Under the pieces are notes generated by a model. It was not told the DNA's origin, did not search any database, and saw only the letters and a list, made by a program, of their open reading frames with translations. A stretch of DNA of 64,000 nt from Phycisphaerae bacterium. Its GTDB lineage: Bacteria; Planctomycetota; Phycisphaerae; Phycisphaerales; UBA1924. The position numbers and the translations under genes are program-made. The stretch lies in contig JAUIES010000001.1 in NCBI GenBank assembly GCA_030429705.1, positions 1,426,001 to 1,490,000 on the forward strand, given 5' to 3'. Below are positions 13,216 to 30,873 of this stretch, piece after piece (the first letter of the stretch is position 1; every line of letters begins with the position of its first letter).

Positions 13216-13557
13216 TCATGCAGCAGCAGCACGCGACGGGGCTTTGAGGTCTTCCTGAAGACTCTCGAACTGGACAGCGACAACCTGGTGGCGGTCGAGG
13301 ACAGAACTGCATCGGACGACACGAGCCGGGACGAGTTCGTTGCGGAAGACGATGGGTCGGCCGTCGGTCTTGAGTGCGATTTCGACGAGTTGACCTGCTC
13401 GAATTGCGGTCGGTGTCTGAACTGACAACATGGCACCGCCCGGGGAGAGATCACTGGTCAGCGCGCCCAGGTAGCGTCCGGTCCGAGAACAACGCACCTT
13501 ACAGCACATTTCGCTGGTCCACCGTTCGTGTTCGCGTCGATCAAATCGCTCACCCAT
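13216..13557 (-). CDS. PilZ domain protein
   Basis: A 113-residue single-domain protein with a very strong AAGGAGGT ribosome-binding site. The c-di-GMP-binding signature is complete: RREHER (Arg8...Arg12) and the DLSPGGA motif (Asp36, Ser38, Gly41). PilZ proteins of this size act as c-di-GMP-responsive adaptors. The tail is Ala-rich. It is divergent from the GT2 gene across 167 bp. No associated output gene is evident, though this window also contains a degenerate HD-GYP protein. Confidence 0.85.
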   Translation of the reverse strand: MGERFDRREHERWTSEMCCKVRCSRTGRYLGALTSDLSPGGAMLSVQTPTAIRAGQLVEIALKTDGRPIVFRNELVPARVVRCSSVLDRHQVVAVQFESLQEDLKAPSRAAAA

Positions 13558-13724
13558 CGTTCGACCTCCTTGTCGTTGACAGATCTTTCTTCGGCTGGAA
13601 GAAGGGAGGCGGATCGCATTGGCTCGATGTGTGCAACGGGGGTAAGAAACTTGCGCATTCGCGCAGCCTGTGCGCTCACCCGAATCGTCAAGTTGTCGCG
13701 GGGTTCACTCCGATAGCGACCACC

Positions 13725-14774
13725 ATGAGTGAAATAGAAGCCACCGTCATTATCCCGACCCATGACCGTCCCGCGAAGATCCGCGAGTGCATCAGGCTTT
13801 TGAGCCGCCAAACGATCGCACCTGAGAAGATTCAGATTTTGGTGGGCGTGGATGGTGAAGAGCAAGCCCCGACGCCGACGCTGGGCGAGTTCTGGACCGG
13901 ACCTGGCGAGAATCTGACGATTGATGCCGCCCCGCACGCCGGACAGGCAGCGGTTCGCAATCGGTTGTTGCCCAAGGCACTGGGCAGAACACTGATTTTT
14001 CTGAATGACGACATGCGTCCGGAGCCGGGCTTTGTCAAAAGTCATCTGGCTGCGCACCAGACGCACTCATCGCCGGAGTATCCCGCGATCGTCGTGGGCG
14101 ATAGTCCGTGGCTGACCTACGACAATGACCGCATGTTCGACCGACTGATTCGCGAGTCGTCGATGATCTTCTTTTATGATCAGATGTACAAAGCGAAAGA
14201 CGCTGCCCAGCGTGACTGGGGGTTCCGTCATGCGTGGATGTTGAATTTGTCGATTCCGACGCACGCGGTGCGGGCTGTCGGGGGGTTGACTGAGTTCCCG
14301 AATACCTATGGGTATGAAGATGACGAACTCGCGCATCGTGTTATTCAACGATTTGGTGCGCCGGTTCGGTTCTGTCCTGATGCGGTTGCGTGGCATGACC
14401 ACCGATACAATCCGGTCGATTATCTCTCTCGCGAGTATCGGCTTGGTTATGCCGCCCTGTCGTTCGCCCAGACTTCGCCGGGATGTGCGCGCAGCCTGTT
14501 CGGGCGGGACATCCTCTCGCCAGAGGAGCAGCAGTACACCGAGTCATTTGTTGTCCGTGAAGAACGAGCGGCGAAGACGGCGCTCGCAGCGTTCATGACC
14601 CTGGCCAACATGCCGGCGGACTTTGCCGAAGGCCCGTTTGCGAGCGAACTGATTGATGTGTGCTATTCGCAGCACTTGCCGCTCAAGCGATGGTGCTGGC
14701 GTTCGGGGTTACTCGATGCACTCGTTGGCGCGGGCGAACAGGCTGATGCGCCTCGACTGCGACTTGCAGCGTGA
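13725..14774 (+). CDS. Glycosyltransferase family 2 protein
   Basis: The start at 13725 gives 349 residues beginning directly with the GT-A fold (ATVIIPTHDRPAKIRECIRLL). The metal/nucleotide-binding acidic motif is FLNDDMRPEPG, and a galactosyltransferase-C-terminal-like segment follows (FPNTYGYEDDELAHR). The longer upstream frame crosses the PilZ promoter and is not coding-like. It likely adds a sugar to a surface glycan, though it stands apart from the two glycan clusters. A strong intrinsic terminator lies just past its stop. Confidence 0.85.
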   Translation: MSEIEATVIIPTHDRPAKIRECIRLLSRQTIAPEKIQILVGVDGEEQAPTPTLGEFWTGPGENLTIDAAPHAGQAAVRNRLLPKALGRTLIFLNDDMRPEPGFVKSHLAAHQTHSSPEYPAIVVGDSPWLTYDNDRMFDRLIRESSMIFFYDQMYKAKDAAQRDWGFRHAWMLNLSIPTHAVRAVGGLTEFPNTYGYEDDELAHRVIQRFGAPVRFCPDAVAWHDHRYNPVDYLSREYRLGYAALSFAQTSPGCARSLFGRDILSPEEQQYTESFVVREERAAKTALAAFMTLANMPADFAEGPFASELIDVCYSQHLPLKRWCWRSGLLDALVGAGEQADAPRLRLAA

Positions 14775-14793
14775 TCAAACAAGAGACGATGAA

Positions 14794-14825
14794 AAAACGA
14801 GCGATCATGTCTGATCGCTCGTTTT
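14794..14825. terminator. Bidirectional intrinsic terminator
   Basis: A 14-bp perfect inverted repeat, AAAACGAGCGATCA and its complement, surrounds a 4-nt loop. It ends in T-rich sequence on both strands. It sits between convergent genes (the GT2 and the porin) and can terminate both. Confidence 0.9.
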
Positions 14826-14847
14826 CATTTTGTGCGCCTCGATGTTT

Positions 14848-16047: not shown

Positions 16048-16091
16048 GTTCAATCTCCGTTGGAGTGCGTGATTTGGGATTTGCGTGCGCA

Positions 16092-16100
16092 CTTATAGCA
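16092..16100 (-). promoter_or_regulatory. Extended -10 promoter element of the porin gene
   Basis: On the minus strand the sequence TGCTATAAG fits the TGn-TATAAT extended -10 pattern, about 45 nt before the porin ATG. No good -35 hexamer is visible, as is common for extended -10 promoters. Confidence 0.45.
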
Positions 16101-16222
16101 CAAGATTGATCACGATTTGCTTCACCAACGGGTGGACTAGAAGAAATTGATTTGAATCAGAACACTCTTCACGGAATCTAAACACAGCGATTGGGCGAGG
16201 ATCCGTTTTTCCACATTGTTGA

Positions 16223-17602: not shown

Positions 17603-17794
17603 GGATTCTCCAACCAGAATAATGGGACAAGGCGCGGGGGTCTGTGCGTTCATTGAACAACACACCCACGGTCGTTGTTGAACATGCACGAGCTCCGTGA
17701 GCCAGCGACATCGCCACGATGTCCAGCATGTTGCATCTGCCGGGCGGTCATCCATCCGGTCTGACAACAATACGCACGCATGTGCGGTCAGTTG

Positions 17795-19288
17795 CTAGTT
17801 GTCGAGCACCTTGATTGGAAACAGTTCGCTGGGCGTGTGCTCTGCGGCCATGATGGCTTCTGCTCGGGACACGACTTCGGGGTACTTGGCCGATACATCG
17901 TTCGTTTCGCCGGGATCGGTGTGCAGGTCAAACAACTGCACAGCAAGTTTCCCTTGACGCAGACCAATTCGAATGGCTTTGAATCGACCATCGTCGAGGA
18001 GGACTGCTTGCGACTGTGGGCCTTCGGGAAACTCCCAGTACAGGAACGGTCGATGGGCCTGATCGTTCGATTGGCCGAGCAATGTTGGGGCGATGCTGAT
18101 GCCATCGAGACCGTTGACTGAGGAGTTGTCGATCAGATCGAGAAAGGTCGGGACGAGGTCGTAGGCGATCGCGGGTGTGGCGCTTTGTGAACCCGGCGCG
18201 ACGCGACCTGGCCAACGGGCGACGAATGGCACACGAATGCCGCCTTCCCACAGTTGGGCTTTGCGTCCACGCAGTTCACCGACCGAGTCGAAGAACTTCA
18301 GATCAACGCCACCAACCCAACTTGCACCGTTGTCCGAGGTCACGATGACGATGGTGTTGTCTGCGAGCCCTTGGTCGTCGAGGTGTTTGAGGATTTGGCC
18401 GATGACATCGTCGAAATATGAGATCATGGCTGCATAAGTCGCTCGGGGTCGAGCGTTCGGCAAGTACCCCGCATTGCCGAGGTAGTGTTCATCGTCCCAA
18501 TCTGCCGGATACTGATCGACCCATTCTTGAGGGGCTTGCAGAGCAAGGTGGGGGATGACGCTCGCATAGTACAAGAAGAACGGCCCGTCATCATTGTTGT
18601 CGAGCCATCGCATCATCTCTTGTGCGATCATGGTTGGTGCGTAGTGCTCGGTTCGATATCGTTCGTTGTACGCGGCTTCGTTTTCAAGTGGTTTTTCCAG
18701 TTTTTGTGAAGAACGGAACCAGGTGTTGCCCGGCAGGATGTGGACATCGTGGTTGCGCCAGAGATGTGTTGGGTAGTAGTTGTGTGCAACCCGCTGGCAG
18801 AGATAGCCATAGAAGTGGTCAAAGCCCTGGTAGTTGGGGTGGCCGGTCGAGCCGGGCCCCCCCAGGCCCCACTTGCCGAAGACACCGGTCGCGTAGCCTT
18901 TTTCTTTGAGTCGCTCCGCGAGCGTAACTTCTTCGTCAGGGATCGGCCATTGCCCCTCAGGGCCTTCCGGGTCGTGCCAACGCGTGCCGGGGACCTCACG
19001 GTTGCCGCGAATGGTGGCGTGCCCCGAGTGCATGCCGGTGAGCAGGGAGCATCTTGAAGGCGCACACACCGGGTTTGCGGTGTAGTACCGCGTGAGTTTC
19101 ATGCCTTCATTTGCCAGTCGGTCGATGTTGGGTGTCTGGATCTTTTGCTGGCCATAAGCACCGACTTCGCGGTACCCGAGGTCATCGGCGTAGATGAGCA
19201 CGATGTTTGGGGGCGTTGCGTGGCCTTGCGTGGCAAAAACACAGAACATCAGAAGGACTGGAACAACAACTGACATAAGAATTTTCAT
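17795..19288 (-). CDS. Secreted sulfatase (formylglycine-dependent, type I)
   Basis: A 497-residue sulfatase with signal peptide (cleavage near GHA, residue 24). Early metal-binding residues are in NIVLIYADDLGY. The CxPSR motif CAPSRCSLLTG carries Cys75, the residue oxidised to formylglycine by the sulfatase-maturing enzyme, which is not in this window. FGKWGLGG and the later TSDNGA motif complete the active site. It removes sulfate esters, probably from an external polysaccharide. It is divergent from the DASS-type transporter across 83 bp, suggesting the two act together. Confidence 0.93.
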   Translation of the reverse strand: MKILMSVVVPVLLMFCVFATQGHATPPNIVLIYADDLGYREVGAYGQQKIQTPNIDRLANEGMKLTRYYTANPVCAPSRCSLLTGMHSGHATIRGNREVPGTRWHDPEGPEGQWPIPDEEVTLAERLKEKGYATGVFGKWGLGGPGSTGHPNYQGFDHFYGYLCQRVAHNYYPTHLWRNHDVHILPGNTWFRSSQKLEKPLENEAAYNERYRTEHYAPTMIAQEMMRWLDNNDDGPFFLYYASVIPHLALQAPQEWVDQYPADWDDEHYLGNAGYLPNARPRATYAAMISYFDDVIGQILKHLDDQGLADNTIVIVTSDNGASWVGGVDLKFFDSVGELRGRKAQLWEGGIRVPFVARWPGRVAPGSQSATPAIAYDLVPTFLDLIDNSSVNGLDGISIAPTLLGQSNDQAHRPFLYWEFPEGPQSQAVLLDDGRFKAIRIGLRQGKLAVQLFDLHTDPGETNDVSAKYPEVVSRAEAIMAAEHTPSELFPIKVLDN

Positions 19289-19371
19289 GTCAACAGCATA
19301 ACGGCACAGAGGACGGATGTGTACTCGGTTTCGGAGCGATGCCTACGCTCAGCGTCATCTGGAGGCCGTGC

Positions 19372-21174
19372 ATGACAGTCGAGATCGTGCTTGTGATCGG
19401 CATTACCCTATCGGTTCTCGTCCTTCTCGCGACGACGCGGATTGCCGCCGATGCAATTCTCGCAGCGGCACTCACTGCCGTTCTCGCGTTTCCGGTTCCC
19501 ACTGATGCGGGATGGCAACTCGGTCTCATCACCGCTAAGCAAGGGCTTGCAGGATTCAGTAACGATGGCGTGCTCACCGTTGGCGTTCTATTCATAATCG
19601 TGACAGGGCTTCGAGAAACCGGGGGAATCGACTGGATTGCATCGCGTTTGCTCGGCAGGCCTAAGAGCGAGCGGAGTGCCGTCGTCCGAGTGATGATTCC
19701 TGTTTTTGGTCTCAGTGGCTTTCTGAACAACACGCCTGTGGTTGCCATGATGATCCCTGCGATCCAAGACTGGGCCAAGAAACTCCATCTGCCACATTCA
19801 AAGCTACTCATTCCGCTCAGTTATGCGTCCATACTTGGAGGTACCTGTTCGCTGATCGGCTCGAGTACGAATCTCGTGATCGCGGGGCTGGTGATTGCTC
19901 AGACAGATCTTGCGCCACTCGGAATGTTTGATATTACATGGGTGGGGTTGCCGACGGCAGTCATCGGTCTCATTTTTCTCGTTCTGGCCGGCCCGCATTT
20001 ATTGCCTGATCGCCATCGTGACAGCGGGCCCTTGGTAGATACCAGAGAGTATGTATTGGAGCTTACGATTCCAACAAGTAGCAGCATCGCTTCCAAGACT
20101 GTCGAGCAGGCAGGGTTACGACATCTTCCTGGGTGCTTTCTGATCGAAATCGAGCGGGGTGACGAGATTATCTCGGCGGTGGGTCCGAATCAGAAACTCC
20201 AGGTCGGCGATCGACTGGTCTTTGCCGGAATCGTCGATTCAATCAAAGAACTGGTGAATACGCGTGGACTCGCACTGGCTTCGAACCAGGTCTTTAAACT
20301 CGATTCTCCTCGATATCGTCGTCGGCTGTTCGAGGCAGTCGTTTCCCCGTCTTCCCCGGCTGCGGGCAGATCAATCAAGCAGTCTCAGTTTCGCAATGTT
20401 TATCGCGGTGCGGTTATTGCTGTCGCGAGGAACGGCGAGCGTGTGCGCGGGCGTATTGGCGACATCGTCGTGCAACCTGGTGACCTGCTGTTGATTGAGT
20501 CGGACCCTGGGTTTGCGGCGCGACATAACAACGCCCGCGATTTTCTGTTGGTCAGAACGCTCGAAGACTCCACCCCTCGCCGACACACCCGAGCCCCGAT
20601 TGCGATTGCAATTCTCGTCGGGATGGTGGCGCTCGCAGCGTTCAATGTGTATTCGATGCTTGTCTCTGCCTTGCTCGCTGCGGGATTCATGGTTTTGACC
20701 CGGTGCTGCACGATTACAGAGGCGCGGCAAAGTATTGACTGGTCGGTGCTCGTCGTGATTGGTGCTGCACTCGGGATTGGTGCGGCAATGGATGAGACGG
20801 GGGCTGCGGATCTTCTCGCCGGTTCGATGCTGACGATCGCGGGTACGCATCCTTGGGTTGTGTTGCTCGCGATCTATCTGATCACTTCGCTGCTGACGGA
20901 GTTCATCTCGAATAATGCTGCGGTCGCGCTGCTGTTTCCAATAGCACAAGCAACCGCCGAGTCTCTCGGTGTCAATTTCATGCCTTTTATCATCGCGATA
21001 ATGATGGCCGGGTCGGCGAGTTTTGCCACGCCTGTTGGGTATCAGACGAATCTGATGGTGTATGGGCCAGGTGGATATCGGTTCAGTGATTTCCTGCGGA
21101 TTGGCATGCCGATGAACATGATCACCGCTTTGACTGCGGTGCTCATCACGCCACTGGTGTTTCCGTTCGCATGA
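19372..21174 (+). CDS. DASS/SLC13-type anion transporter with two RCK_C (TrkA-C) domains
   Basis: I use the ATG at 19372, preceded by GGAGG at 6 nt, giving 600 residues. The N-terminal half has about six membrane segments and conserved loops GFLNNTPVVAMMIP and LGGTCSLIGSSTNLVI. Two soluble RCK_C domains follow (about residues 224-300 and 317-395, each with an L-x-x-GD-x-L pattern: LQVGDRLVF and VQPGDLLLI). The C-terminal membrane half has SNNAAVALLFP and TPVGYQTNLMV. This layout matches SAC1/SLT-type sulfate transporters. Adjacency to a divergent sulfatase supports sulfate as substrate, but that is inference. Confidence 0.88.
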   Translation: MTVEIVLVIGITLSVLVLLATTRIAADAILAAALTAVLAFPVPTDAGWQLGLITAKQGLAGFSNDGVLTVGVLFIIVTGLRETGGIDWIASRLLGRPKSERSAVVRVMIPVFGLSGFLNNTPVVAMMIPAIQDWAKKLHLPHSKLLIPLSYASILGGTCSLIGSSTNLVIAGLVIAQTDLAPLGMFDITWVGLPTAVIGLIFLVLAGPHLLPDRHRDSGPLVDTREYVLELTIPTSSSIASKTVEQAGLRHLPGCFLIEIERGDEIISAVGPNQKLQVGDRLVFAGIVDSIKELVNTRGLALASNQVFKLDSPRYRRRLFEAVVSPSSPAAGRSIKQSQFRNVYRGAVIAVARNGERVRGRIGDIVVQPGDLLLIESDPGFAARHNNARDFLLVRTLEDSTPRRHTRAPIAIAILVGMVALAAFNVYSMLVSALLAAGFMVLTRCCTITEARQSIDWSVLVVIGAALGIGAAMDETGAADLLAGSMLTIAGTHPWVVLLAIYLITSLLTEFISNNAAVALLFPIAQATAESLGVNFMPFIIAIMMAGSASFATPVGYQTNLMVYGPGGYRFSDFLRIGMPMNMITALTAVLITPLVFPFA

Positions 21175-21184
21175 GCGTGTGCCT

Positions 21185-21751
21185 TCATGCCTTGCTGTAA
21201 GCAGCCTTGAGCCAATCAACAAGCTCTTCATCAACCTGTTTGACATGTTCAACACGAACCCGGTGGCTGACCATGCTGTTGAAACTGCCTGATTCTTCCA
21301 ACCGATCTGTGGTGTCGTGTCCCTTGAGGTTGATACCAACATCAATCCGTGTCTTGGTGCTTGGCTGGACGATCGCGAACTGCTTTGAGCGTCGCAGACT
21401 GACATAGGCTTTTTTGGGTGCAATCTCGATGTCTTTGCCGAATCGTGCGGTTGCTTTGATAATGGCATCGTAGACGGGGCGTAATTCTGCTTTTGGGCCG
21501 GCGTATTGAGCGTTGACCAGATCGTCTTCGCTTGCCGCACTCCCTGCGTCAGAGGCGAGCGTCTTGTGCGCGACGAGGTTGGCGAACCCATGAGTCATGC
21601 CGTGGTCGGCCTTGAGCATTTTGACGATTTCGCCATGCTTTGCGAGTTTTGATGCCTTGGCGATCTTGAGCCATTGCTCGAGCGTCTTGCCCGTCTTTTC
21701 TTTCATGTTGGCGATCATGGCTGCAGCCATGTCTTCGGGTGAAGAAGGCAT
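21185..21751 (-). CDS. DUF4287/DUF5655-type protein
   Basis: A 188-residue soluble protein. The N-terminal 70 residues (MAAAMIANMKEKTGKTLEQW, then a helical KHGEIVKMLKADHGMTHGFAN) match my recollection of the DUF4287 family. The C-terminal half (PVYDAIIKATARFGKDIEIAPKKAYVSLRRSKQFAIVQP) resembles DUF5655, which ends many such proteins. No biochemical role is known to me. It starts 2 bp after the SRPBCC gene stops, so the two are almost certainly an operon. Confidence 0.8.
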   Translation of the reverse strand: MPSSPEDMAAAMIANMKEKTGKTLEQWLKIAKASKLAKHGEIVKMLKADHGMTHGFANLVAHKTLASDAGSAASEDDLVNAQYAGPKAELRPVYDAIIKATARFGKDIEIAPKKAYVSLRRSKQFAIVQPSTKTRIDVGINLKGHDTTDRLEESGSFNSMVSHRVRVEHVKQVDEELVDWLKAAYSKA

Positions 21752-21753
21752 GA

Positions 21754-22233
21754 TTACACGGTCTCCGTGGATTCTGAAGAAGCATGGGCCGACTCACATG
21801 CGGCTTTGATGTCGGCCAGATCGGCGACGAGACATTTAACGAGCGATTTGGTCATGGCTGCAAACACTTTTGACAAGACTTTGGCCATAAATGTTTCGGG
21901 TGTGCCGGTAAAGGTAAATGTCATCTTTGTGATGCCCGGCTCAACTTCTTCAAAAGTGATCGGGGTGAGGTAGTGGGTGCCGCAACTTCTGGCTTCAACG
22001 ACATATTCATTGGGGGGATCCCACTTGATCACCCACATGGTCTCTGTCGCTTTCTTTCCGAACATGATGCGTGTTTCGCGCCACTTGGTGCCTTCACCCA
22101 TTGGTCCGTCGGAGAGCATCTCGATTTCGGTAATGCCGCGAATGCGATCGGCAGCGTTGGGGATATCGCTGGCGATCTGGAAAACAAGATCGATTGGTGC
22201 GTGAATGGTCTCGGAGACAACGATTGGTTTCAT
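21754..22233 (-). CDS. SRPBCC (START-like) family protein
   Basis: The 159-residue product from the ATG at 22233 has the START/Bet v1-like layout. A beta strand opens it (KPIVVSETIHAPIDLVFQIASDI), followed by helix and curved-sheet strands (GTKWRETRIMF, MWVIKWDPPNEYVVEA, ITKMTFTFTGTP) and a long C-terminal helix. These proteins bind hydrophobic ligands in a deep cavity. The longer frame adds twelve residues unlike the family. It is tightly coupled to the downstream DUF4287 gene. Confidence 0.82.
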   Translation of the reverse strand: MKPIVVSETIHAPIDLVFQIASDIPNAADRIRGITEIEMLSDGPMGEGTKWRETRIMFGKKATETMWVIKWDPPNEYVVEARSCGTHYLTPITFEEVEPGITKMTFTFTGTPETFMAKVLSKVFAAMTKSLVKCLVADLADIKAACESAHASSESTETV

Positions 22234-22344
22234 GCCAATCAGCGTATCGGTGGGTTGTCGCGCGTGCAACCCCAGTTGGCAGGGGTCGTCGCGGTTGGTG
22301 TACTGTGAATTCGATCAGGGTGATCGCGACGCGTCAGGGTTTCG

Positions 22345-23871
22345 CTACGCAGCCTGACCTGGCGTTTCGCCATAAAGCCGAACGACCCGCAGGCCTTGCT
22401 GTTCGTACTGCGATCGTCGGTCCCATATCGTCGTTTCATGCAGCCAAGAACTGATGACGACGACGCCCGCTCCTGATTGGGCGGCTTCCGATGGGGGTAT
22501 GACGGGTCGCCCCATGATCATCCTGCCGTGTTGGCTGGGGTCGTCATCTGTAAACGCGACGATGGCCCCCCCGCATGAATCGATCTCTTCGGCTAGCCAA
22601 GTGGTGTGTGCGCCGAGCCCGTGGATGATGATGCGGTCGGCTCCATGCTCGGCAAGTGCGCGGCTGAACCGTGCTCGTGCGTCTGGTGGGACGGATCCGG
22701 GGCGATTGACATCATGGAATGGCTCGACAACCCTGCGTGGCGGGCGTTCTGACTGGGCGGCGATGATCAGTTCACGCTCGGCAGCATCACCCATTGCGGC
22801 GTGTGAAAACAAACGCTGTGCCCGAGCGTGCGCAGCCGATCCTACCTTAGCAACGCCGCGATCGATGACGCGCTTGACGCTGTCTGCCAGAGCACAGCCA
22901 ACGGTTTCTGCATCATTGATGGCGGAACAGGATGCGATTTCACCTGCTTCGCCGTGACCAACCAGATCTTGGGCACCGGAGGGCGTGTCGCTGATGACGA
23001 GCGCACAGCCGTGCGCCATGGCTTCGAGCGCAGCGAGGCTGAGCCCTTCGATGCGTGATCCAAGTACGAATACATCGTGTCGGTCGAGTTGTGTTGACAC
23101 TTCGCTCGGCGGTATAGCGCCGAGGAGTCGGACTGAGGGTCGTTGGCTTGCGCTCACTTGCAGCGCCTGGGTTGCAGGACCATCACCGACGATTGTCAGA
23201 ACATGCTCAATGCTGTGTTGGTTGAGTGCATCAGACATGGCGATCAGTGATGAGACCCGCTTGACAGGTTCATCCAGTCGACCTGTGTAGATGAGTCTGA
23301 TCGCATCGCTGTGAGGTCGCTGCGCTACAACTGGGGGAACAGCAACGCCGTTGATGACGAGACCGACGCGGTCTCTTTCGTTTGGCAGATCGCGTTGCAT
23401 GGATGCACATAGCCAGGCGCTGACACCCACGATACGGGACATCGCCCAGCTGTAGCGCTCGAAGATGGCCTGTTCATACGGCATGGGCGAGTGTCGCCAA
23501 CCAACCAGTCGTGCGCCGGTTTGCATGCAGACTTCGGCGCAGGCTGCGAAACAGTCAGCATCGCGTGTTGGCAAGAGTATCGCGTCTTGACCGGTTCGCT
23601 CGCTCACAGCCTCAGTGATGGTCTTGTACGCCTCGATCACCCTAGACAGGTCGCCGTTGTAGGTTCTGGGTGGGCGCAGGTCGTTCAGGTTGACCACTTC
23701 GCATCCTGGCGGCGGTGCGCACTCGACCTCGTCGTGGCCGGGGGTCCCGCCGTGCACAACGAGCGTGATCGGCCAACCTCGATTGCTGAGCACTTCTGCG
23801 AGCGTGTACGCCCATGTGGTAACCCCTCCGATCGTGGTTCCTTCGGGCAGCATGATGACGATGGGGTTCAC
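22345..23871 (-). CDS. GT4-type glycosyltransferase with extra C-terminal domain
   Basis: A 508-residue protein. Residues 1-390 form a GT-B glycosyltransferase: the acceptor-side loop GGVTTWAYTLAEVLSNRG near the N-terminus, VGWRHSPM, IYTGRLDEPVKR, and the nucleotide-sugar region SRIEGLSLAALEAMAHG. Residues about 409-508 form an added domain (GLGAHTTWLAEEID, FTDDDPSQHGRM, VISSWLHE) not found in simple GT4 enzymes but shared with the GT2 at 29659. Its start overlaps the stop of the upstream GT4 by 4 nt, so the pair is an operon. Donor and acceptor are unknown. The context is surface glycan synthesis. Confidence 0.87.
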   Translation of the reverse strand: MNPIVIMLPEGTTIGGVTTWAYTLAEVLSNRGWPITLVVHGGTPGHDEVECAPPPGCEVVNLNDLRPPRTYNGDLSRVIEAYKTITEAVSERTGQDAILLPTRDADCFAACAEVCMQTGARLVGWRHSPMPYEQAIFERYSWAMSRIVGVSAWLCASMQRDLPNERDRVGLVINGVAVPPVVAQRPHSDAIRLIYTGRLDEPVKRVSSLIAMSDALNQHSIEHVLTIVGDGPATQALQVSASQRPSVRLLGAIPPSEVSTQLDRHDVFVLGSRIEGLSLAALEAMAHGCALVISDTPSGAQDLVGHGEAGEIASCSAINDAETVGCALADSVKRVIDRGVAKVGSAAHARAQRLFSHAAMGDAAERELIIAAQSERPPRRVVEPFHDVNRPGSVPPDARARFSRALAEHGADRIIIHGLGAHTTWLAEEIDSCGGAIVAFTDDDPSQHGRMIMGRPVIPPSEAAQSGAGVVVISSWLHETTIWDRRSQYEQQGLRVVRLYGETPGQAA

Positions 23872-24974
23872 GCGGCTCGCTCCTTTTCTTCGGCGTGAGC
23901 GCTCTTCAGAATGCGGGCAGCTCTGGCGGTGTAACTCAGGTTCTGAGCGAGTGTGCGCCTGCGAGCTCGGGCTGCGTGATCTGACCGTGTTGCCAAAGCA
24001 GTCTCGATTCCGAGCGCGAGTGATTCGCCGTCATCGGGTTCACACCAGGTGACGGGTTCCTGCCCAAGCGCCTCGACGAGCGCAGGGATCCGAGACACGA
24101 CGAGTGGTGAACCTGATGCGAGGTATTCGCCGAGTTTGACGGGGCTCGTCCAGTCTTTCGATGCTTCTTTGTTTGATGGTGGCAGGAGCAGGACATCAGC
24201 GCCGCGCGTCCACGCTGGTACCTGTCGATGCTCGACCGAGCCATGGACGGTGACATTGGACATGCCGAATTTTCGCACCGTGTCTTTCACTCGTTGTTGA
24301 TCTTGTTCGAGTCCTCCGACGAGGTGGAACTGGAACGCAGGGAGTCGTTGTGCTGATTCGAGAATTGCGGGCACGCCCTTGTAGTCGTACAAGTGTCCGG
24401 CGTAGACGATGTGAGGCCCGACGCTGCCGTAGTCGTGCGGCGTTGCAGTGTCGAAGAGTTCAAAGTCCACGCCGTCGGCAACAACCCACACACGATCTGC
24501 CCGCGCTCCGCGTTGAATGAAGTCATCGCGCAATACGCGCCCGATGGTGATGACGCTGCGCATGGCGTTGTTGACTTGAGTTTCTTGCAGACACTGATCA
24601 AGCAGTTCGTTTTCGACACCAACATGGGCATGTGATTCCATGATTGAGACGATGCCTGCTCTGGCTGTGAATAGCGGGCCCCAGAAGTTTCGGGCGTACA
24701 CGAGGTCGACTTTGTCTTGTTGTGCTGTTCGAGCAGCCCACGCGCCAAATGATTCTGGATCCTCTTGCGCCGAATCAGCGGGCGCGAATCGCCAGTGCAA
24801 GTCGTGTTCGGCGTACGCCGATCCGGGTTGGCTCAGGGCGTGGTTTTCTGGTTGCAGGCAGTACACGCTGACTTCGTGGCCGAGCCGATGGAATCCGCTT
24901 GCGGTCTTGATCGTGTTGATGACATGGGCGCGTGACGACCCAGGTTGAATTTGGCTGATGACACCGATTCGCAT
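23868..24974 (-). CDS. GT4-type glycosyltransferase
   Basis: A 368-residue GT-B enzyme. The start at 24974 opens with MRIGVISQIQPGSSRAHVIN and a Rossmann-like first domain (GFHRLGHEVSVYCLQ). The second domain has HIVYAGHLYDYKGVPAILES, the FHLVGG strand and KLGEYLASGSPLVVSRIP, where retaining GT4 enzymes usually have an E-x7-E motif. It precedes and overlaps the extended GT4 by 4 nt (ATGA). It is divergent from a small sulfotransferase across 153 bp. Confidence 0.87.
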   Translation of the reverse strand: MRIGVISQIQPGSSRAHVINTIKTASGFHRLGHEVSVYCLQPENHALSQPGSAYAEHDLHWRFAPADSAQEDPESFGAWAARTAQQDKVDLVYARNFWGPLFTARAGIVSIMESHAHVGVENELLDQCLQETQVNNAMRSVITIGRVLRDDFIQRGARADRVWVVADGVDFELFDTATPHDYGSVGPHIVYAGHLYDYKGVPAILESAQRLPAFQFHLVGGLEQDQQRVKDTVRKFGMSNVTVHGSVEHRQVPAWTRGADVLLLPPSNKEASKDWTSPVKLGEYLASGSPLVVSRIPALVEALGQEPVTWCEPDDGESLALGIETALATRSDHAARARRRTLAQNLSYTARAARILKSAHAEEKERAA

Positions 24975-25127
24975 GATGAAGTCATCGGCCCATTGGCACG
25001 GGTGTGTCGAAGATGAGGCGGTCGCGCGATTGCGCAATGATTGCGCTTCGCGTCACAACAACTTGTACAGCTTGAAAGCCCATGACGAGGCACCATCACG
25101 CCGACAACATGGGCAGGAGAACAGCAC

Positions 25128-25676
25128 ATGCATCAAGGGTACATCTTTGGCATTGGACTCAGCAAAACCGGGACGCACACACTCAACGAGTGTTTGAATA
25201 TCCTTGGCTACAAGTCGATTCACTTTCCTGACCCGGCGCTCATGACCGCCCGCGCGTTTGATCAAGCGTTGCAGGGTTACAACGCGGCGACTGACATATC
25301 CGTGGCTGCGTATTTTGATGTGCTCGACCGGAAGTATCCGGGGAGCAAGTTTGTGTTGACCAAGCGTGCGCTAGAGCCCTGGCTCGACAGCGTCGAAGAT
25401 CATCGGCAACGCCGGGCGCATGAACTCACGAATCGAGATTGCCCGAAAGCGGTCGTTCGCGAAAAAATCTATGGCACGCGCGGTTTTGACCGGAAGACAT
25501 TTGCCCGGGCCTACGACACCCATCTTGCCAGAGTGCGCGCCTATTTCAGCCAACGCACTGATGATCTGCTTGAACTGAGTTTGTGTCGCTCGACAGACTG
25601 GCAGCCGCTCTGCGACTTTCTGGATGCGCCCGTGCCTGCAGCGCCGATTCCATGGTTGAATCGAACCGCAGCGTGA
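25128..25676 (+). CDS. Small sulfotransferase family protein
   Basis: A 182-residue protein resembling the Sulfotransfer_4 group. The phosphosulfate-binding loop is IGLSKTGTHTLNECL (residues 9-23). The 3'-phosphate region is KFVLTKRALEPWLDSVEDH, with the helix Trp and Ser typical of this group. The C-terminus ends in the short WLNRTAA. At 182 residues it is somewhat shorter than many relatives, but both cofactor motifs are present. It is the third intact sulfotransferase of the window and sits inside the second glycan island, divergent from the GT4 operon. Confidence 0.8.
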   Translation: MHQGYIFGIGLSKTGTHTLNECLNILGYKSIHFPDPALMTARAFDQALQGYNAATDISVAAYFDVLDRKYPGSKFVLTKRALEPWLDSVEDHRQRRAHELTNRDCPKAVVREKIYGTRGFDRKTFARAYDTHLARVRAYFSQRTDDLLELSLCRSTDWQPLCDFLDAPVPAAPIPWLNRTAA

Positions 25677-25753
25677 CGAACCGCGCAGGACCGCGGGCGT
25701 AAAGATGGGCGATGACACCAATCGCGTTGCTTTAAAGAGTTCGGGCTCGGTGC

Positions 25754-26506
25754 TCAGCCCAGGCCACACAGGACGGTGTGGCAGGCGAATGGCGATCGTT
25801 TGAGCAATCGCGCCTGAAAACCGATCTCGCGAATCAACCCGCGCGACCACGGCATGTCATCCTGCGGCATTAATCTTGACGCGTGAACACAGAACCCGCA
25901 TGATTTGACAAAGCGAACAAACTCGTTTTGTGCCCATTCGCGGACATGCTCGGGTTTTTCAGACTTGCGGCATGTGCGGCCGCGACGGCGATTGCGTTCG
26001 GGTGTCGAGATCAACACGAGTCCATCCCGTGCCACGACGCGTTGAATCATGGCCATCGCCGGAGCGGGGTTGACAAGGTGTTCGACGACATCTGCGAAGA
26101 TCACGAGGTCAAAGGGTTCGTCCGGTTCAAAGGATGGTTTTTCGAGATCAACTTCCAAAAATGTGCCGGTTCGATCAAGTCGGTTGCAGTTTGCGACGGC
26201 TGAAGGTTGATCAATGCCGACGATGGTGGCGCCGGTCGGTGCGATGGAGCGCTCGAGTTTGGTTGCGACCCCGCACCCGACATCGAGCACGCGCGTAAAC
26301 CCTGTGCGGCGGATCAAGCGTTCCGCCCAATCGTACACATGTGACTGGTATTTTCCGCTTTGGCTGATACGCCAAGGACTCCAGTACCCTTCGTCATCTC
26401 GATTGGCATCGAGTGTGACATTGGTGTCTTGCGCTTCGTATCCTTTGGGCAGGTACAACGATTTCGCATCGGGTGCGGACGGCTCGTGTGTTGTCAGCGT
26501 ACTCAT
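25754..26506 (-). CDS. SAM-dependent methyltransferase, class I
   Basis: A 250-residue Methyltransf_11/23-like protein. SAM-binding motif I is RVLDVGCGVATKLE, the acidic end of strand 2 is IVGIDQPSA, and motif IV-like sequence is FDLVIFADVVEHLVNP. The gene overlaps the stop of the GT4 at 26503 by 4 nt (ATGA), so it is translated with it. It probably methylates a sugar of the exported glycan, or the lipid carrier end. An in-frame start further up would overlap the GT4 more. Confidence 0.85.
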   Translation of the reverse strand: MSTLTTHEPSAPDAKSLYLPKGYEAQDTNVTLDANRDDEGYWSPWRISQSGKYQSHVYDWAERLIRRTGFTRVLDVGCGVATKLERSIAPTGATIVGIDQPSAVANCNRLDRTGTFLEVDLEKPSFEPDEPFDLVIFADVVEHLVNPAPAMAMIQRVVARDGLVLISTPERNRRRGRTCRKSEKPEHVREWAQNEFVRFVKSCGFCVHASRLMPQDDMPWSRGLIREIGFQARLLKRSPFACHTVLCGLG

Positions 26507-27852
26507 GCGACTCTCCGATTCGCTTTGAGTCTGCCCATGTGTGCCAAGACGGGTGCGCATCGACTGTCGGGCAGGTGTTCAAGCAGTGTTTCGAGCGATT
26601 CCTGCCATGCTTCGGCAATCTTTTCTGGCGAATGTTGGAGCAGTGCTGCATTCCATCGAATCAGGGGCGCATGCCTTACTTCACTTGATCGACCTGCATC
26701 GATCGCGGCCTTATGGGCCTCTCGCTCGAGTTGCACGACGCGGTCGATGCCAAAGCGCTGACGCGTTCGTTCAGCGGCGCAGGCACCGAGTTGGTTTCGC
26801 CAACTCAAGTCAGACAAGACGCCCGCGAGGGCATAGGCGAAGGTCTCGCTTTCGCCCGGCACACGAATACCGGTCACCCCGTTTTCGATCAGACAACCGA
26901 GACCGGGTGTGTCAGCGACGATGCAAGGTGTGCCACACGCCATGGCTTCGATCACGCTCTTGGGATGCCCCTCGAGTGCGCTGGCGTGCGCGTAGATGGA
27001 TGCGTGGGACATTCGATCGAGCACGAAATCGTGTGGTTGAATGCCCAGGAACCGCACGGTTGCGCCGGTTTCATTCGCGAGGGCTTCGAGCGCTGCGCGC
27101 TCGGGGCCGTCGCCAATAATTTCGAGGACAGCATGTTCTTCGTCAGGTTGATCAGCAACGGCTTTGATCAGGTTCTCGACGCGTTTTCGCTCGACCAGTT
27201 GGCCGACATAGAGGACCACGCCGCGCTCTCGATCTTCTGCTTCGAGGATCTTGCGATTCGTAAAGACATAGTTTGGAATGACGCGGGTGTGTTCGGGTGC
27301 GAGCCCGTCTCGCCAACTCAGGTCGTCGATGATTTGCCGTGTTGTACCGACCACGATGTCCGCGAGGCCGATGACACCTTGTTCGATTAATGCGGCTTCT
27401 CGGGCTTCGCGCGAGCCGGGGCCATTTTCGCGTGAGAGGAACTGTGAACGAAGGTAGCCACACCGAGCGATCAGACCTACAGCAACGCCACGATCACGCA
27501 AACCGGCGGTGAGCGCACACGCTGCGCCCGCATCATCCATTTGATTTGTTTTGATCACCGCGTCTCGAATGGGTCCGACTGTCGCGAAGAGGCGATCGGT
27601 GAGTGTCGATACATAGGTCGGTGCGTCATGTCCGTCGTCGTTGACGATGACTGAGACATGTGATCCGAGCGATTGTGCAATGGGGATATCTGTTGCATCG
27701 CCGTGTGAAATCACAACGATGCGTTCATAATCCGCGCCGAGTTGTTCGTAGAGCGCCCATTCGCGATTGAGGAGTCCGAGCCGATTCCATTCGGCGAGTG
27801 ACATCCCGCGCGTGAGTGTGAGGATCAGTGTTTCGGCAATGTTGTGACTCAT
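26503..27852 (-). CDS. GT4-type glycosyltransferase
   Basis: A 449-residue GT-B enzyme. The N-terminal half has an aberrant first strand (ETLILTLTRGMSLAEW). The second domain is canonical, with VVLYVGQLVERKRVENLIKA, VLEIIGDGPERAALE, and ALEGHPKSVIEAMACGTPCIVADTPGLG carrying the E-x7-E type motif. It forms a two-gene operon with the downstream methyltransferase through an ATGA overlap. It starts divergently from the methyltransferase at 27911 with about 60 bp between the starts. Confidence 0.88.
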   Translation of the reverse strand: MSHNIAETLILTLTRGMSLAEWNRLGLLNREWALYEQLGADYERIVVISHGDATDIPIAQSLGSHVSVIVNDDGHDAPTYVSTLTDRLFATVGPIRDAVIKTNQMDDAGAACALTAGLRDRGVAVGLIARCGYLRSQFLSRENGPGSREAREAALIEQGVIGLADIVVGTTRQIIDDLSWRDGLAPEHTRVIPNYVFTNRKILEAEDRERGVVLYVGQLVERKRVENLIKAVADQPDEEHAVLEIIGDGPERAALEALANETGATVRFLGIQPHDFVLDRMSHASIYAHASALEGHPKSVIEAMACGTPCIVADTPGLGCLIENGVTGIRVPGESETFAYALAGVLSDLSWRNQLGACAAERTRQRFGIDRVVQLEREAHKAAIDAGRSSEVRHAPLIRWNAALLQHSPEKIAEAWQESLETLLEHLPDSRCAPVLAHMGRLKANRRVA

Positions 27853-27910
27853 GCGTGTTCCCGCTCGCCAATGGTCAAGCCCACATCGACAGGTGTTCGA
27901 TACGACCGGT

Positions 27911-28846
27911 ATGCCTGTGATGAACCCAACACTGTCAGTTCCTCAGTCTGATAACCCCACGCCGGAGTTGAATCCGCAGTCGCTCAACGGCGACCATGAC
28001 CTTTCTTCGGACGAGCGGGCTGCCTACCTCAATTTCCATGCCGCCCGGAACAGGGCCAATGCTGAGCAATCGAAAGCAGGGGGTGTGCAGGTCCGGTCAT
28101 TTCGTTCGAGAGCGTCTTCACCCAAAACGCTCGCATCCCCCTCCAGAGTCGCTATGGACGATTTCATTCATCAGCGTGCACAACAATTTGCCCGGATATG
28201 GGGAGGTCGCGCTCTCCGCGTACTTGATATCGGTTGCGGGTCTGGTTATGCATGTACTCTCCTCGAACAGGGGGGTCTGTCCGGCGAGTATATCGGGGTC
28301 GATCATGAACTTCATCCTTCATTCGAAGCGGTGACAAGCGCACAATTTGCGCGTCGACATATCAGCACCGACATTCTGAATCTTGACCCGAATGCGATCG
28401 GTTCGGTCGATTTGCTTGTATCCATGACCTCACTCGAACACTTTGAAGATGATGTTGGTGCGTTGCAGATCGCTCGACGATGTCTCGCGCCTGGCGGGGG
28501 CGAGTTGCACATCGTGCCGGCAGAAGATGGGCTTCGTCTGTGGGAGACGCATGGCTGGCGTCAGTACTCGCCCGGGTGTGTTCAATCGCTGTGTCCTTCG
28601 GCGGCGCTCTATCGCATCGGTGGCGCGGCTTCGGCATTCACACACTATCACCTGATTACCAAGCCGAATCGAGCGCATGTCGACTGGAGAAGTCGGCATC
28701 CGAAGTTGTACCGCGCGATGCGCTCGTTCAGTTTGGCGCTCGACCCGATCTGCGGCAACAGGCCGGCATCGCTGTATGCAGCGGTGATTTCACCAACACG
28801 AACAACACAACACGAGGGAGAGGCATCCAGCCTCTCGGCAGCATGA
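27911..28846 (+). CDS. SAM-dependent methyltransferase, class I
   Basis: I take the ATG at 27911 (or 27920), avoiding the overlap with the divergent GT4, giving about 311 residues. A long polar N-terminal region (about 80 residues) precedes motif I (RVLDIGCGSGYACTLLE). IGVDHELHP and the motif-IV-like region SVDLLVSMTSLEHFEDD follow. It ends with a 4-nt overlap (ATGA) with the next methyltransferase. A sugar-O-methyltransferase role is inferred only from the neighbourhood. Confidence 0.82.
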   Translation: MPVMNPTLSVPQSDNPTPELNPQSLNGDHDLSSDERAAYLNFHAARNRANAEQSKAGGVQVRSFRSRASSPKTLASPSRVAMDDFIHQRAQQFARIWGGRALRVLDIGCGSGYACTLLEQGGLSGEYIGVDHELHPSFEAVTSAQFARRHISTDILNLDPNAIGSVDLLVSMTSLEHFEDDVGALQIARRCLAPGGGELHIVPAEDGLRLWETHGWRQYSPGCVQSLCPSAALYRIGGAASAFTHYHLITKPNRAHVDWRSRHPKLYRAMRSFSLALDPICGNRPASLYAAVISPTRTTQHEGEASSLSAA

Positions 28847-29655
28847 GTTCCACCATTATCCGACGCAACGGCCGACTTGAGATGTACCGCGAAGGGGCGG
28901 ACACACCTGCGTATTGGGATGCCCACTGGGCGGAGCACCCCCCCGAACCCATGACCGGCATGGGCATGTATTGTGGGTTTCGCGATGCGATCGAACAGTA
29001 CATGCCGCGCGACGGTCGCATCATTGAAGCGGGCTGTGGGAACGGGAACACGGCGCGGACGATTCGCGCAGCGGGTTTTCACATCGAGGGCATCGACTTC
29101 GCTCCGAATGTGATCGAGGCAAATCGGAGCATCGACCCCGAGGGCGTCTATCGCGTTGCGGATGTCAGACATCTGGACGATGCATCAAGTTCGATAGACG
29201 GGTACATGTCGTTTGGCGTTGTTGAGCATTTTGCCGATACCGAACGCCGAGAGATTCTGCTTGAAGCGGCTCGATGTCTCAAGCCGGGCGGAGTTGCGCT
29301 GTTCACGGTGCCGCACTTCAATCTCGTGCGGCGGCTGCGGTTTGGTTTTGCAGGTGGTCAGCCGCCGAAGGATGTGCCGTTCTATCAGTACTTTTTCAGC
29401 GCGAGCGAGCTGACCGCGGATCTGCGTGCGGTAGGTTTTCAGATTACGCATGTGGACGCCTACGACGCGTACAAGGGGATCAAGGACACGATCGGCGGGA
29501 AATCGATCTTGGATCGACTCCGCGCGACAAGCCCGCAGTGGCGGCGACGGGTGGACCAGCCGCCGCGCTGGGTTCGGCGGACTGCCGGGCACATGCTGCT
29601 TGTCATCGCGACTAAACCAGCAGATGGTGTTTCGACAGTTCGAGAGGCGGCATAA
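28843..29655 (+). CDS. SAM-dependent methyltransferase, class I
   Basis: A 270-residue Methyltransf_11-like enzyme starting at the ATG that overlaps the previous stop. Motif I is IIEAGCGNGNTARTIRAAG, followed by IEGIDFAPN, VADVRHL, and the MSFGVVEHF segment. The motif LKPGGVALFTVP follows. The longer frame with an N-terminal extension would be antisense to other genes and is rejected. It is followed 3 bp later by the GT2 gene, so a methyltransferase-methyltransferase-GT2 operon is likely. Confidence 0.87.
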   Translation: MSSTIIRRNGRLEMYREGADTPAYWDAHWAEHPPEPMTGMGMYCGFRDAIEQYMPRDGRIIEAGCGNGNTARTIRAAGFHIEGIDFAPNVIEANRSIDPEGVYRVADVRHLDDASSSIDGYMSFGVVEHFADTERREILLEAARCLKPGGVALFTVPHFNLVRRLRFGFAGGQPPKDVPFYQYFFSASELTADLRAVGFQITHVDAYDAYKGIKDTIGGKSILDRLRATSPQWRRRVDQPPRWVRRTAGHMLLVIATKPADGVSTVREAA

Positions 29656-29658
29656 ACG

Positions 29659-30873
29659 ATGGCGGTGACGGTGCTGCTCCCGGTGTATCGCGCCAAACGC
29701 GATGAACTTGAACGGTCGTTTGATGACATCTGTTGTCAAACCTGCGAAGACCTCGAGATTCTTGTCATTTTGAATGGGTCTGATGCCAGCACGCATGAGG
29801 CAGCGACGGCGTTGTGCGCGCGCGAACCGCGGGGGCGCGTGATTGAACTGAATCAGGCAAACCTGGCTGCGGCACTCAATGCCGGGATGCAGGAGGCGCG
29901 GTTCGAGTTGATTGCTCGCATGGATGCGGACGATCGGTGTGAGCCGCATCGTATAGCGCAGCAGGTTGCGGCGATGGAGAGCCGGCCCGAGGTTCTGGCG
30001 CTCGGATCGGCGTATGAGATCGCAGATCGGCAAGGCCGACGGGTGGGGGTGGTGACACCGCCTTCTGATGGTGCAGAATCACGATGGAAACTGTTGGTCT
30101 CAAACCCGTTTGCGCATGGTTCGATGATGCTTCGGCGATCGGCGGTGCTTGCAGCGGGTGGGTATGACGCGTCGTTCGTGCGAAGTCAGGATTACGACCT
30201 GTGGGTTCGACTCAGTGAGATCGGCGAGGTGTGTGCACTGCCGCAGGTACTGTACACACTGACACGATCGGATCGGGCGTTTGGAGCGACCCCTGAGCAA
30301 GGTGAACACGCTGCACGGGTGATGGCGCGGGCGTGGGCGGGGCTCGCTCGCGGCGACCTGGACGAAGCAGCGGCTGGACGAATGATTGAGCGGCAGAGTG
30401 TCGCTGGGGTTATTGCAACATTGGAAGATCGCATGAGCGAGCGAGGGCCCACGCTGACCGATGTGGCTGCATGGCTCTTCGGACAGTGGGCATCTCCTGG
30501 ATCGCATGTCAAGGCGTTTGATGTCGCGCGAGGTGCAAGGCTGCGCGAGGTTGGGCGCGCGATGCAGGATGCGGGCGTGACGCGCGTGTGGCTGTGGGGC
30601 GCCGGGCGGCACACAGGGTGGTTGCTCGATCATGTCGATGATCTTGGGGTGCCCGTCGCGGGCATTGTTGATGATGCACTCGCGGGGCAGGAACGGTTTG
30701 GGCGTGTCATCGAGTCGCCACAGGCCATGCGCGGGGGGGAGCATGTGCTCTTGTCGAGCGATTGGCATGAAGATGCGATGTGGGCATCATCAGCCGAGGC
30801 GCGAGGTCGGGGTGTGCGCGTGTGGCGGATGTATGCGGACGAACCGGTACAGCAACGAACACAAGTCGCATGA
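29659..30873 (+). CDS. GT2-type glycosyltransferase with extra C-terminal domain
   Basis: A 404-residue protein. Residues 1-210 are a GT-A domain: AVTVLLPVYRAKRDELERSF at the N-terminus, the metal-binding DxD as ARMDADDRC, and RSQDYDLWVRLSE as the acceptor-side motif. Residues about 305-404 repeat the added domain of the GT4 at 22345: WLWGAGRHTGWLLDHV, GIVDDALAG, LLSSDWHEDAMW. The linker (about 215-300) is helical. It starts 3 bp after a methyltransferase, is last in the operon, and ends 8 bp from the convergent GNAT gene. Confidence 0.88.
   Translation: MAVTVLLPVYRAKRDELERSFDDICCQTCEDLEILVILNGSDASTHEAATALCAREPRGRVIELNQANLAAALNAGMQEARFELIARMDADDRCEPHRIAQQVAAMESRPEVLALGSAYEIADRQGRRVGVVTPPSDGAESRWKLLVSNPFAHGSMMLRRSAVLAAGGYDASFVRSQDYDLWVRLSEIGEVCALPQVLYTLTRSDRAFGATPEQGEHAARVMARAWAGLARGDLDEAAAGRMIERQSVAGVIATLEDRMSERGPTLTDVAAWLFGQWASPGSHVKAFDVARGARLREVGRAMQDAGVTRVWLWGAGRHTGWLLDHVDDLGVPVAGIVDDALAGQERFGRVIESPQAMRGGEHVLLSSDWHEDAMWASSAEARGRGVRVWRMYADEPVQQRTQVA

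Follow-up and report, generated by a model that had tools for sequence, protein, structure and literature searches.

Two glycosyltransferases share a C-terminal tail

The window analyzed here is a stretch of 64,000 nucleotides from a Phycisphaerae bacterium of the phylum Planctomycetota (assembly GCA_030429705.1, contig JAUIES010000001.1, positions 1,426,001 to 1,490,000). It carries two glycosyltransferase (GT) genes, one on each strand, whose products end in a similar segment of about 100 residues, referred to below as the tail. Both genes are present where a first-pass annotation of the sequence had placed them (Table 1). In the GT-B protein, the Pfam domains Glyco_trans_1_4, Glycos_transf_1 and Glyco_transf_4 were matched, with group 1 domains above the cut-off, which assigns it to GT4; the GT-A protein carries Glycos_transf_2, likewise above the cut-off, and belongs to GT2. 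Because GT4-type domains are found on one protein and Glycos_transf_2 on the other, the catalytic folds differ, as the annotation had claimed.

The tails aligned with a local BLOSUM62 score of 148, compared with a mean of 29.8 (standard deviation = 5.7, best = 68) in 1,000 shuffles, and the same region gave the best local alignment when the full GT-B and GT-A proteins were compared. A search of the source genome with the GT-B tail at E ≤ 1 returned only two copies, those of the window GT-B and GT-A proteins, the latter at 33% identity (E = 1.6e-10). Judged from these sequence comparisons, the C-terminal segments of about 100 residues are homologous, in agreement with the first-pass annotation; chance similarity is ruled out by the shuffles together with the 112 related domains described below, a set in which both tails fall rather than in unrelated families. 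Among the motifs that had been described, GxGxHTxWL and the DD pair at segment positions 34-35 were recovered, whereas the last motif is better written as SSxxHE (SSWLHE and SSDWHE in the two proteins).

Table 1. Features of the window discussed in the text, with positions counted from its first nucleotide
Feature	Positions	Strand	Details
GT4-type (GT-B) glycosyltransferase with C-terminal tail	22345..23871	minus	508 amino acids, GTG start; Pfam Glyco_trans_1_4 6.7e-22, residues 192-313
Rossmann-like tail of the GT-B protein	22348..22698	minus	Modelled stretch; hidden Markov model (HMM) core about residues 406-500
GT2-type (GT-A) glycosyltransferase with C-terminal tail	29659..30873	plus	404 amino acids; Pfam Glycos_transf_2 4.1e-23, residues 4-162
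Rossmann-like tail of the GT-A protein	30520..30858	plus	HMM core about residues 302-392
GT4b, second GT4-type glycosyltransferase, without tail	23868..25037	minus	Pfam; synteny, conserved neighbour
Sulfotransferase-family gene	25128..25676	plus	Pfam Sulfotransfer_4 5.9e-33; synteny, conserved neighbour
MTa, S-adenosylmethionine (SAM) methyltransferase	25754..26560	minus	Pfam; synteny, conserved neighbour
GT4c, third GT4-type glycosyltransferase, without tail	26503..27852	minus	Pfam; synteny
MTb, SAM methyltransferase	27851..28846	plus	Pfam; synteny
MTc, SAM methyltransferase	28840..29655	plus	Pfam on the 28480-29655 frame; synteny with 28840-29655
GT2up, GT2-type glycosyltransferase	13374..14774	plus	Pfam; synteny

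Fold and database placement

We modelled the GT-B tail with AlphaFold2 from nine sequences, with a predicted local distance difference test score (pLDDT) of 87.2 and a predicted template modelling score of 0.81. Structural comparison with VIA-align put sugar C-methyltransferases first, namely KijD1 (Z = 10.3, 110 aligned residues, 3.3 Å), MtmC (10.1) and TcaB9 (9.8). The GT-A tail was modelled within the full protein, where blocks over residues 301-390 reached pLDDT 85-94 in a model that was poor outside the tail (mean pLDDT 63.1, four sequences); its best structural rows were TcaB9 and KijD1, both at Z = 9.4, followed by MtmC at 8.9. Both models match TcaB9 and KijD1 and correspond to the C-terminal domain of these proteins, which bears out the Rossmann-like layout read from the sequence alone. 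Unrelated tails with different folds are ruled out by the models of both tails and their structure matches.

Sequence searches placed the tail near, and outside, several described families. A profile of 103 tails matched the Protein Data Bank (PDB) sequences 3nkl (E = 1.4e-6), PerB (3e-5), the FkbM methyltransferase 2py6 (0.0021), KijD1 (0.0065), TcaB9 (0.011) and VioB (0.021), and in the same range of E-values it also matched two designed proteins (0.0013 and 0.0037) and a hydrolase (0.0064). The GT-B tail alone scored 22.3 bits against Methyltransf_14 (PF08484; gathering cut-off 23.5, full protein 18.5) and 17.7 bits against PglD_N (PF17836; cut-off 23.4, full protein 14.8), and neither window protein matched PF13727 (CoA_binding_3) in Pfam at E ≤ 1. 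Of the 103 tails, 49 matched PglD_N and one matched PF13727 at E ≤ 0.1. In NCBIfam, the GT-B tail showed a weak NeuD/PglB/VioB match of 16.9 bits against a cut-off of 160.8. We conclude that no Pfam family as currently defined includes the tail. It is a divergent form, expanded in this lineage, that is related to the Rossmann-like accessory domains accompanying nucleotide-sugar enzymes, and it has a signature of its own, GxGxHT..DD..SSxxHE..Y.

The first Foldseek row for the GT-B tail was also 3nkl (9.0e-5), and this match bears on the idea that each protein is bifunctional, with the tail contributing another catalytic activity such as NAD(P)-dependent sugar oxidoreduction or a further transfer reaction. 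The best PDB sequence match is named UDP-D-quinovosamine 4-dehydrogenase, the fold is Rossmann-like, and the polar H, DD, S and Y are strongly conserved. However, the 3nkl chain has 141 residues; we infer that its name reflects annotation of the whole protein and that 3nkl is of the PF13727/PglF type and represents the non-catalytic N-terminal part of PglF-type enzymes. The tail itself, at about 100 residues, has no separate substrate domain, and we regard a second catalytic role as very unlikely.

Conserved residues

An iterative profile search of the fetched loci yielded 156 domain matches, 112 of them unique, including eight from other bacterial families (two at L083, one at L085 and those at L087-L091). 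Across the 112 domains, the strongest columns were the two glycines (105 and 110), the histidine and threonine of the HT motif (104 and 94) and the two aspartates (111 and 102), with a serine and a tyrosine conserved in 98 domains each. The group in which the tail is associated with Methyltransf_11 carries PGG in place of GAG. In alignment A6, which holds 103 of the 112 domains (the nine left out are seven shorter than 70 residues, one truncated domain of L073, and L089), seven columns were at least 90% conserved: G27, G29, H31, D51, D52, S83 and Y109. All seven lie no more than five residues past the end of a beta strand in the GT-B tail model. Rossmann folds usually bind their ligand on the side of these post-strand loops. 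The seven columns are retained in the class consensus of the GT4, GT2, FkbM, U1 and U2 tails defined below, and this retention of one residue set across partner classes favours a common class of ligand.

Fusion partners

The 112 domains were clustered by their upstream parts. Forty-three clustered with the window GT4 protein and 30 with the window GT2 protein, and 11 formed an unclassified group, U1, a count that includes two domains in one frame. The others comprised eight FkbM methyltransferases, four members of a second group, U2, three tails ahead of Methyltransf_11, 11 singletons, among them TylF-type and Methyltransf_24 proteins, and two that were too short. Cluster names were taken from the members scanned with Pfam (two GT4, four GT2, two FkbM, one Methyltransf_11 and all singletons except L091). 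The annotation's scope of two glycosyltransferases thus holds for the window, where both are tailed, and is understated for the domain, which also occurs on methyltransferases, an SGNH-like protein and other proteins.

No Pfam match was found for U2 in the one of four proteins scanned. Its members share the blocks GDSH, GEIDCR and DGVH, from which we take it to be SGNH-like. The four U1 frames scanned gave no catalytic Pfam match; U1 has an invariant GGDD block and, as a guess, may be an undescribed GT-A-like enzyme. Neither group gained a catalytic relative from PDB profile searches with its proteins. Examples of U1 and U2 are the frames L047:9333-10541:+ and L047:10514-11617:+, respectively. 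Among the 112 domains there was no clear stand-alone tail gene, with contig-end matches at L028, L073 and L091 set aside.

Several loci hold more than one tail. Four tailed genes stand in tandem at L075:7600-12335:- (genome G041), two of the FkbM cluster and two of U1, and two consecutive tail domains lie within a single open frame at L076:8647-10626:-. Four tailed open frames also occur in close proximity at L057:8168-17996, where one tail precedes Methyltransf_11 plus FkbM matches and another sits in the middle of a Methyltransf_24 protein.

This range of partners would be accounted for if the tail recognised a common acceptor, such as the growing glycan or a lipid or protein carrier, and thereby tethered each transferase, methyltransferase and SGNH-like protein to the same glycan. 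However, the nearest structural and sequence relatives of the tail include accessory domains of nucleotide-sugar enzymes, and no lectin or lipid binder appeared among the matches listed. We consider acceptor binding unlikely, and both this and a second catalytic role less likely than ligand binding or docking, which are weighed below.

Distribution and relatives outside the source family

A profile built from the two window tails matched 83 of 100 genomes of the bacterial family of the source genome (source included, E ≤ 1e-3) and 14 of 294 genomes across Planctomycetota (source included, E ≤ 1e-4). With the 103-tail profile at E ≤ 1e-8, 22 of the 294 matched, seven from the source family and 15 from other families, the latter with 36-59 bits. 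The phylum searches scored at most 16 candidates per genome, so these counts are lower bounds; among the genomes listed, eight of the same order and seven of the same class gave no match, and another 252 genomes outside this listing were also without one. A contig scan with strict patterns derived from the two sequences returned six loci, labelled Planctomycetota, Phycisphaerales or Phycisphaeraceae.

A search of a plasmid collection with the tail alone gave 83 records at E ≤ 1, but in no record did a match extend over 80% of the tail; the ten matches listed had E-values of 0.03-0.5, and six carried the annotation sugar epimerase/dehydratase or pglF. When the full GT-B protein was used, 230 plasmid records matched, through the catalytic part only in the ten listed.

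The 15 genomes from other families contain 16 places, which we assigned by Pfam: four GT2 proteins, three methyltransferases, two PglF-type dehydratases, one FkbM protein, three winged-helix proteins, one radical SAM protein, one without a match and one truncated and unscanned. FkbM and GT2 fusions therefore also occur outside the source family. Two of the three methyltransferases carry Methyltransf_14 above the cut-off, one at 190 bits. As far as the sequences have been seen, the full signature appears to be a property of the source family's own branch.

The winged-helix proteins with a tail relative lie at L109:1066-1821:+, L112:1501-2217:- and L117:625-1794:+, with winged-helix matches above the cut-off in L109 and L112 and below it in L117. 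Fusion to a winged helix is an architecture typical of sensors, and it is possible that these proteins are sugar- or nucleotide-sensing regulators in other Planctomycetota. In another locus from outside the source family, a GT2 frame (L083:586-1848:+) and a radical SAM frame (L083:1575-3017:+) overlap, each with a tail relative.

Glycan locus and synteny

The setting of both tailed genes in a glycan cluster, claimed by the first-pass annotation, is supported by comparison with 27 loci. The order GT4tail-GT4b-sulfotransferase-MTa-GT4c-MTb-MTc-GT2tail was complete in L061, and L059, L060 and L064 kept the window gene order with one or two genes missed by BLAST. Nineteen of the compared loci carry a tailed GT2, and 18 of these also have a match to GT4c. 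The window pair is part of an eight-gene glycan locus that is conserved in relatives. The open frame of MTc begins at 28480, and its true start probably lies near 28840.

GT2up adjoins the tailed GT4 in nine of the 27 loci (L048, L049, L055, L059, L060, L061, L064, L073 and L074). In the window, the two genes are about 7.6 kb apart (14775-22344), and the genes between them were read as porin-like, S74-peptidase-like, sulfatase-like and transporter-like; the arrangement looks like that of a locus interrupted by an insertion or rearrangement. In the FkbM-type locus L047, an epimerase and a PfkB-plus-cytidylyltransferase protein are encoded near the tailed genes, consistent with a supply of nucleotide sugars.

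Phylogeny and co-occurrence of the tails

We constructed a tree by a quick method from 109 of the 112 domains over 95 columns (the L083 domain at 106, L087 and L091 were dropped as short or of poor quality); 57 of its 106 inner branches remained open. The source GT4 tail falls in a clade of 34 rows with 33 other GT4 tails, with a Shimodaira-Hasegawa-like approximate likelihood ratio test (SH-aLRT) support of 90, and the source GT2 tail in a clade of 27 rows with 26 other GT2 tails (SH-aLRT 99). Both clades draw on many genera. A recent duplication of the tail within the source genome is ruled out, as its own two tails fall in these separate, supported clades. Nine further GT4 tails are placed elsewhere in the tree, and the FkbM and U1 tails are interleaved, a pattern that suggests exchange of tails or repeated fusion.

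Profiles of the two clades were then searched against the 100 family genomes, with cut-offs set by eye (E ≤ 1e-34 for GT2 and ≤ 1e-31 for GT4) and at most 47-48 candidates scored per genome. A GT2-clade tail was found in 26 genomes and a GT4-clade tail in at least 52. A clear gap closes the GT2 list if G033 is set aside, a genome left out because its tail match is split in two. No such gap delimits the GT4 list, and G023 and G082, whose tails lie in the GT4 clade of the tree, fall under the strict cut-off, so 52 is a lower bound. Of the 26 genomes with a GT2-clade tail, 25 also had a GT4-clade tail (hypergeometric 3e-8, uncorrected for kinship); in the other, G072, the GT4 match is just under the cut-off. 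The sources of the FkbM/U1 loci, G003, G012, G018, G041, G042, G052 and G057, were absent from both clade lists.

Such co-occurrence, together with the frequent presence of tailed enzymes of very different chemistry in one locus, would be expected if the tail were a docking or dimerisation module, with its conserved face in contact with a second tail or with a scaffold protein shared by the enzymes. Other observations run against this explanation, the main rival to ligand binding. The most conserved residues lie in post-strand loops, as in ligand pockets; in G050, G059 and others, some of them incomplete, a single copy was found at E ≤ 1e-3, which leaves only self-docking; and the tailed GT4 and tailed GT2 are on different contigs in G073 and G085. 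We consider docking doubtful as the function of the tail.

Ligand binding as the proposed function

With moderate confidence, we propose that the ligand of the tail is a nucleotide or a nucleotide-linked sugar, and that its binding controls or places the enzyme to which the tail is attached. The analysis shows the homology, the fold, the set of conserved residues, the fusion to many catalytic types and the conserved locus, whereas the type of ligand and the regulatory or tethering role are inferred. Contacts to the ligand would be made at the C-terminal edge of the beta sheet by the final tyrosine, the DD pair and two loops, the glycine-rich GxGxHT and SSxxHE. Its binding would regulate the attached enzyme or hold the substrate of that enzyme, and several enzymes of one glycan pathway could thereby respond to one ligand. 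The nucleotide or sugar binding unit envisaged in the first-pass annotation is accordingly plausible, and its interpretation as a whole is partly supported.

A precedent comes from the phosphoglycosyl transferase WbaP. Its accessory domain is reported to be stabilised by UMP, UDP and UTP (uridine mono-, di- and triphosphate), and WbaP to be inhibited by UMP (PMC10942596); the same study reports that this domain makes most of the dimer contacts (PMC10942596). By analogy, WbaP would support ligand binding and docking alike.

Several points weigh against ligand binding as proposed here. The active site of a glycosyltransferase already accommodates a nucleotide sugar, and the WbaP study also reports that UDP-Gal destabilised the accessory domain (PMC10942596). 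The structural matches are not specific: for the GT-B tail, VIA-align placed the uncharacterised 2g6t at 9.9, succinyl-CoA synthetase (SucD) at 9.6 and an NADH-sensing Rex-family repressor also at 9.6, all within 1 of the best row. Since SucD and Rex are thus tied with the sugar enzymes, the fold alone does not discriminate between a nucleotide sugar and CoA or NAD(H) as ligand. In the list for the GT-A tail, 3nkl (8.2) and WbaP (8.0) were not above phosphoribosyltransferase rows (up to 8.6). In Pfam, the GT-B tail stays under the cut-offs of both PglD_N and Methyltransf_14, and the GT-A protein has neither at E ≤ 1. The proposed pocket also varies within the family, with the second serine of SSxxHE in 84, its histidine in 70 and its glutamate in 83 of the 112 domains, and U1 tails carry LSxnSxE in its place. 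Among the relatives from other families whose alignments were inspected, most lack HT, SSxxHE, the second aspartate and the terminal tyrosine of the signature, so the ligand may differ from theirs.

A broader form of the proposal extends to all partners in the source family, namely glycosyltransferases of both folds, methyltransferases of the FkbM and TylF types and the SGNH-like protein. The tail would then be a pathway-wide address or sensor: one ligand, probably a nucleotide or nucleotide sugar that belongs to the surface glycan alone, would be bound by the same pocket on every partner, and the assembly line would be switched or tethered as a whole. We offer this extension tentatively, as a possibility.

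One small fold with the same core pocket residues, attached to enzymes of unrelated chemistry in glycan loci, provides a test case for the way in which bacteria coordinate the building of a glycan. Should all tails share one ligand, its identity would reveal the sugar pathway and open a way to study feedback of the kind proposed for WbaP in glycosyltransferases that are soluble. The signature can also be used to annotate glycan loci in this part of Planctomycetota.

Comparison with known systems

This fold is already known on methyltransferases, acetyltransferases, dehydratases and phosphoglycosyl transferases. Among the titles and abstract openings listed in searches of the open-licence literature, we found no report of the HT/DD/SSxxHE subfamily, of such tails on glycosyltransferases, of a partner range that takes in GT-A and GT-B enzymes, methyltransferases and SGNH-like proteins, or of the conserved paired locus.

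One close counterpart is the Methyltransf_14 domain of the sugar C-methyltransferases TcaB9, KijD1 and MtmC, which has the same fold, supplies the top structural rows for both tails, and is likewise C-terminal to another catalytic domain; the profile match spans positions 4-105 or 6-105 of 110. Unlike Methyltransf_14, the tail falls under the Pfam cut-off and carries HT, DD and SSxxHE, and its partners in the window are GT4 and GT2 enzymes instead of a SAM methyltransferase with an N-terminal zinc domain.

PglD_N, the N-terminal domain of the sugar acetyltransferases PglD, PerB and VioB, which we take to bind nucleotide sugars, shares the GxGxH loop and the D ending strand 2 in the PerB alignment. 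In contrast, its match does not extend beyond the first half of the tail, and the window tails are C-terminal, without a hexapeptide acetyltransferase match. The PF13727 accessory domain of PglF dehydratases and large phosphoglycosyl transferases such as WbaP is probably represented by 3nkl, the best PDB sequence match, and also by the WbaP row for the GT-A model; unlike proteins with this domain, the window proteins have no membrane part by Pfam and have other partners, and the WbaP profile match had E = 1.1.

In 2py6, residues 42-107 match the tail profile, so a tail-like domain probably exists on an FkbM methyltransferase, although the matched part is N-terminal, unlike the window tails, and unrelated chains appear at similar E-values. 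Finally, the Rex redox sensor shares the fold. It differs in sequence (the best Rex row in the profile search had E = 0.06) and in its winged helix, which the window proteins lack, and its layout of a winged helix plus a Rossmann domain resembles that of the proteins at L109 and L112.

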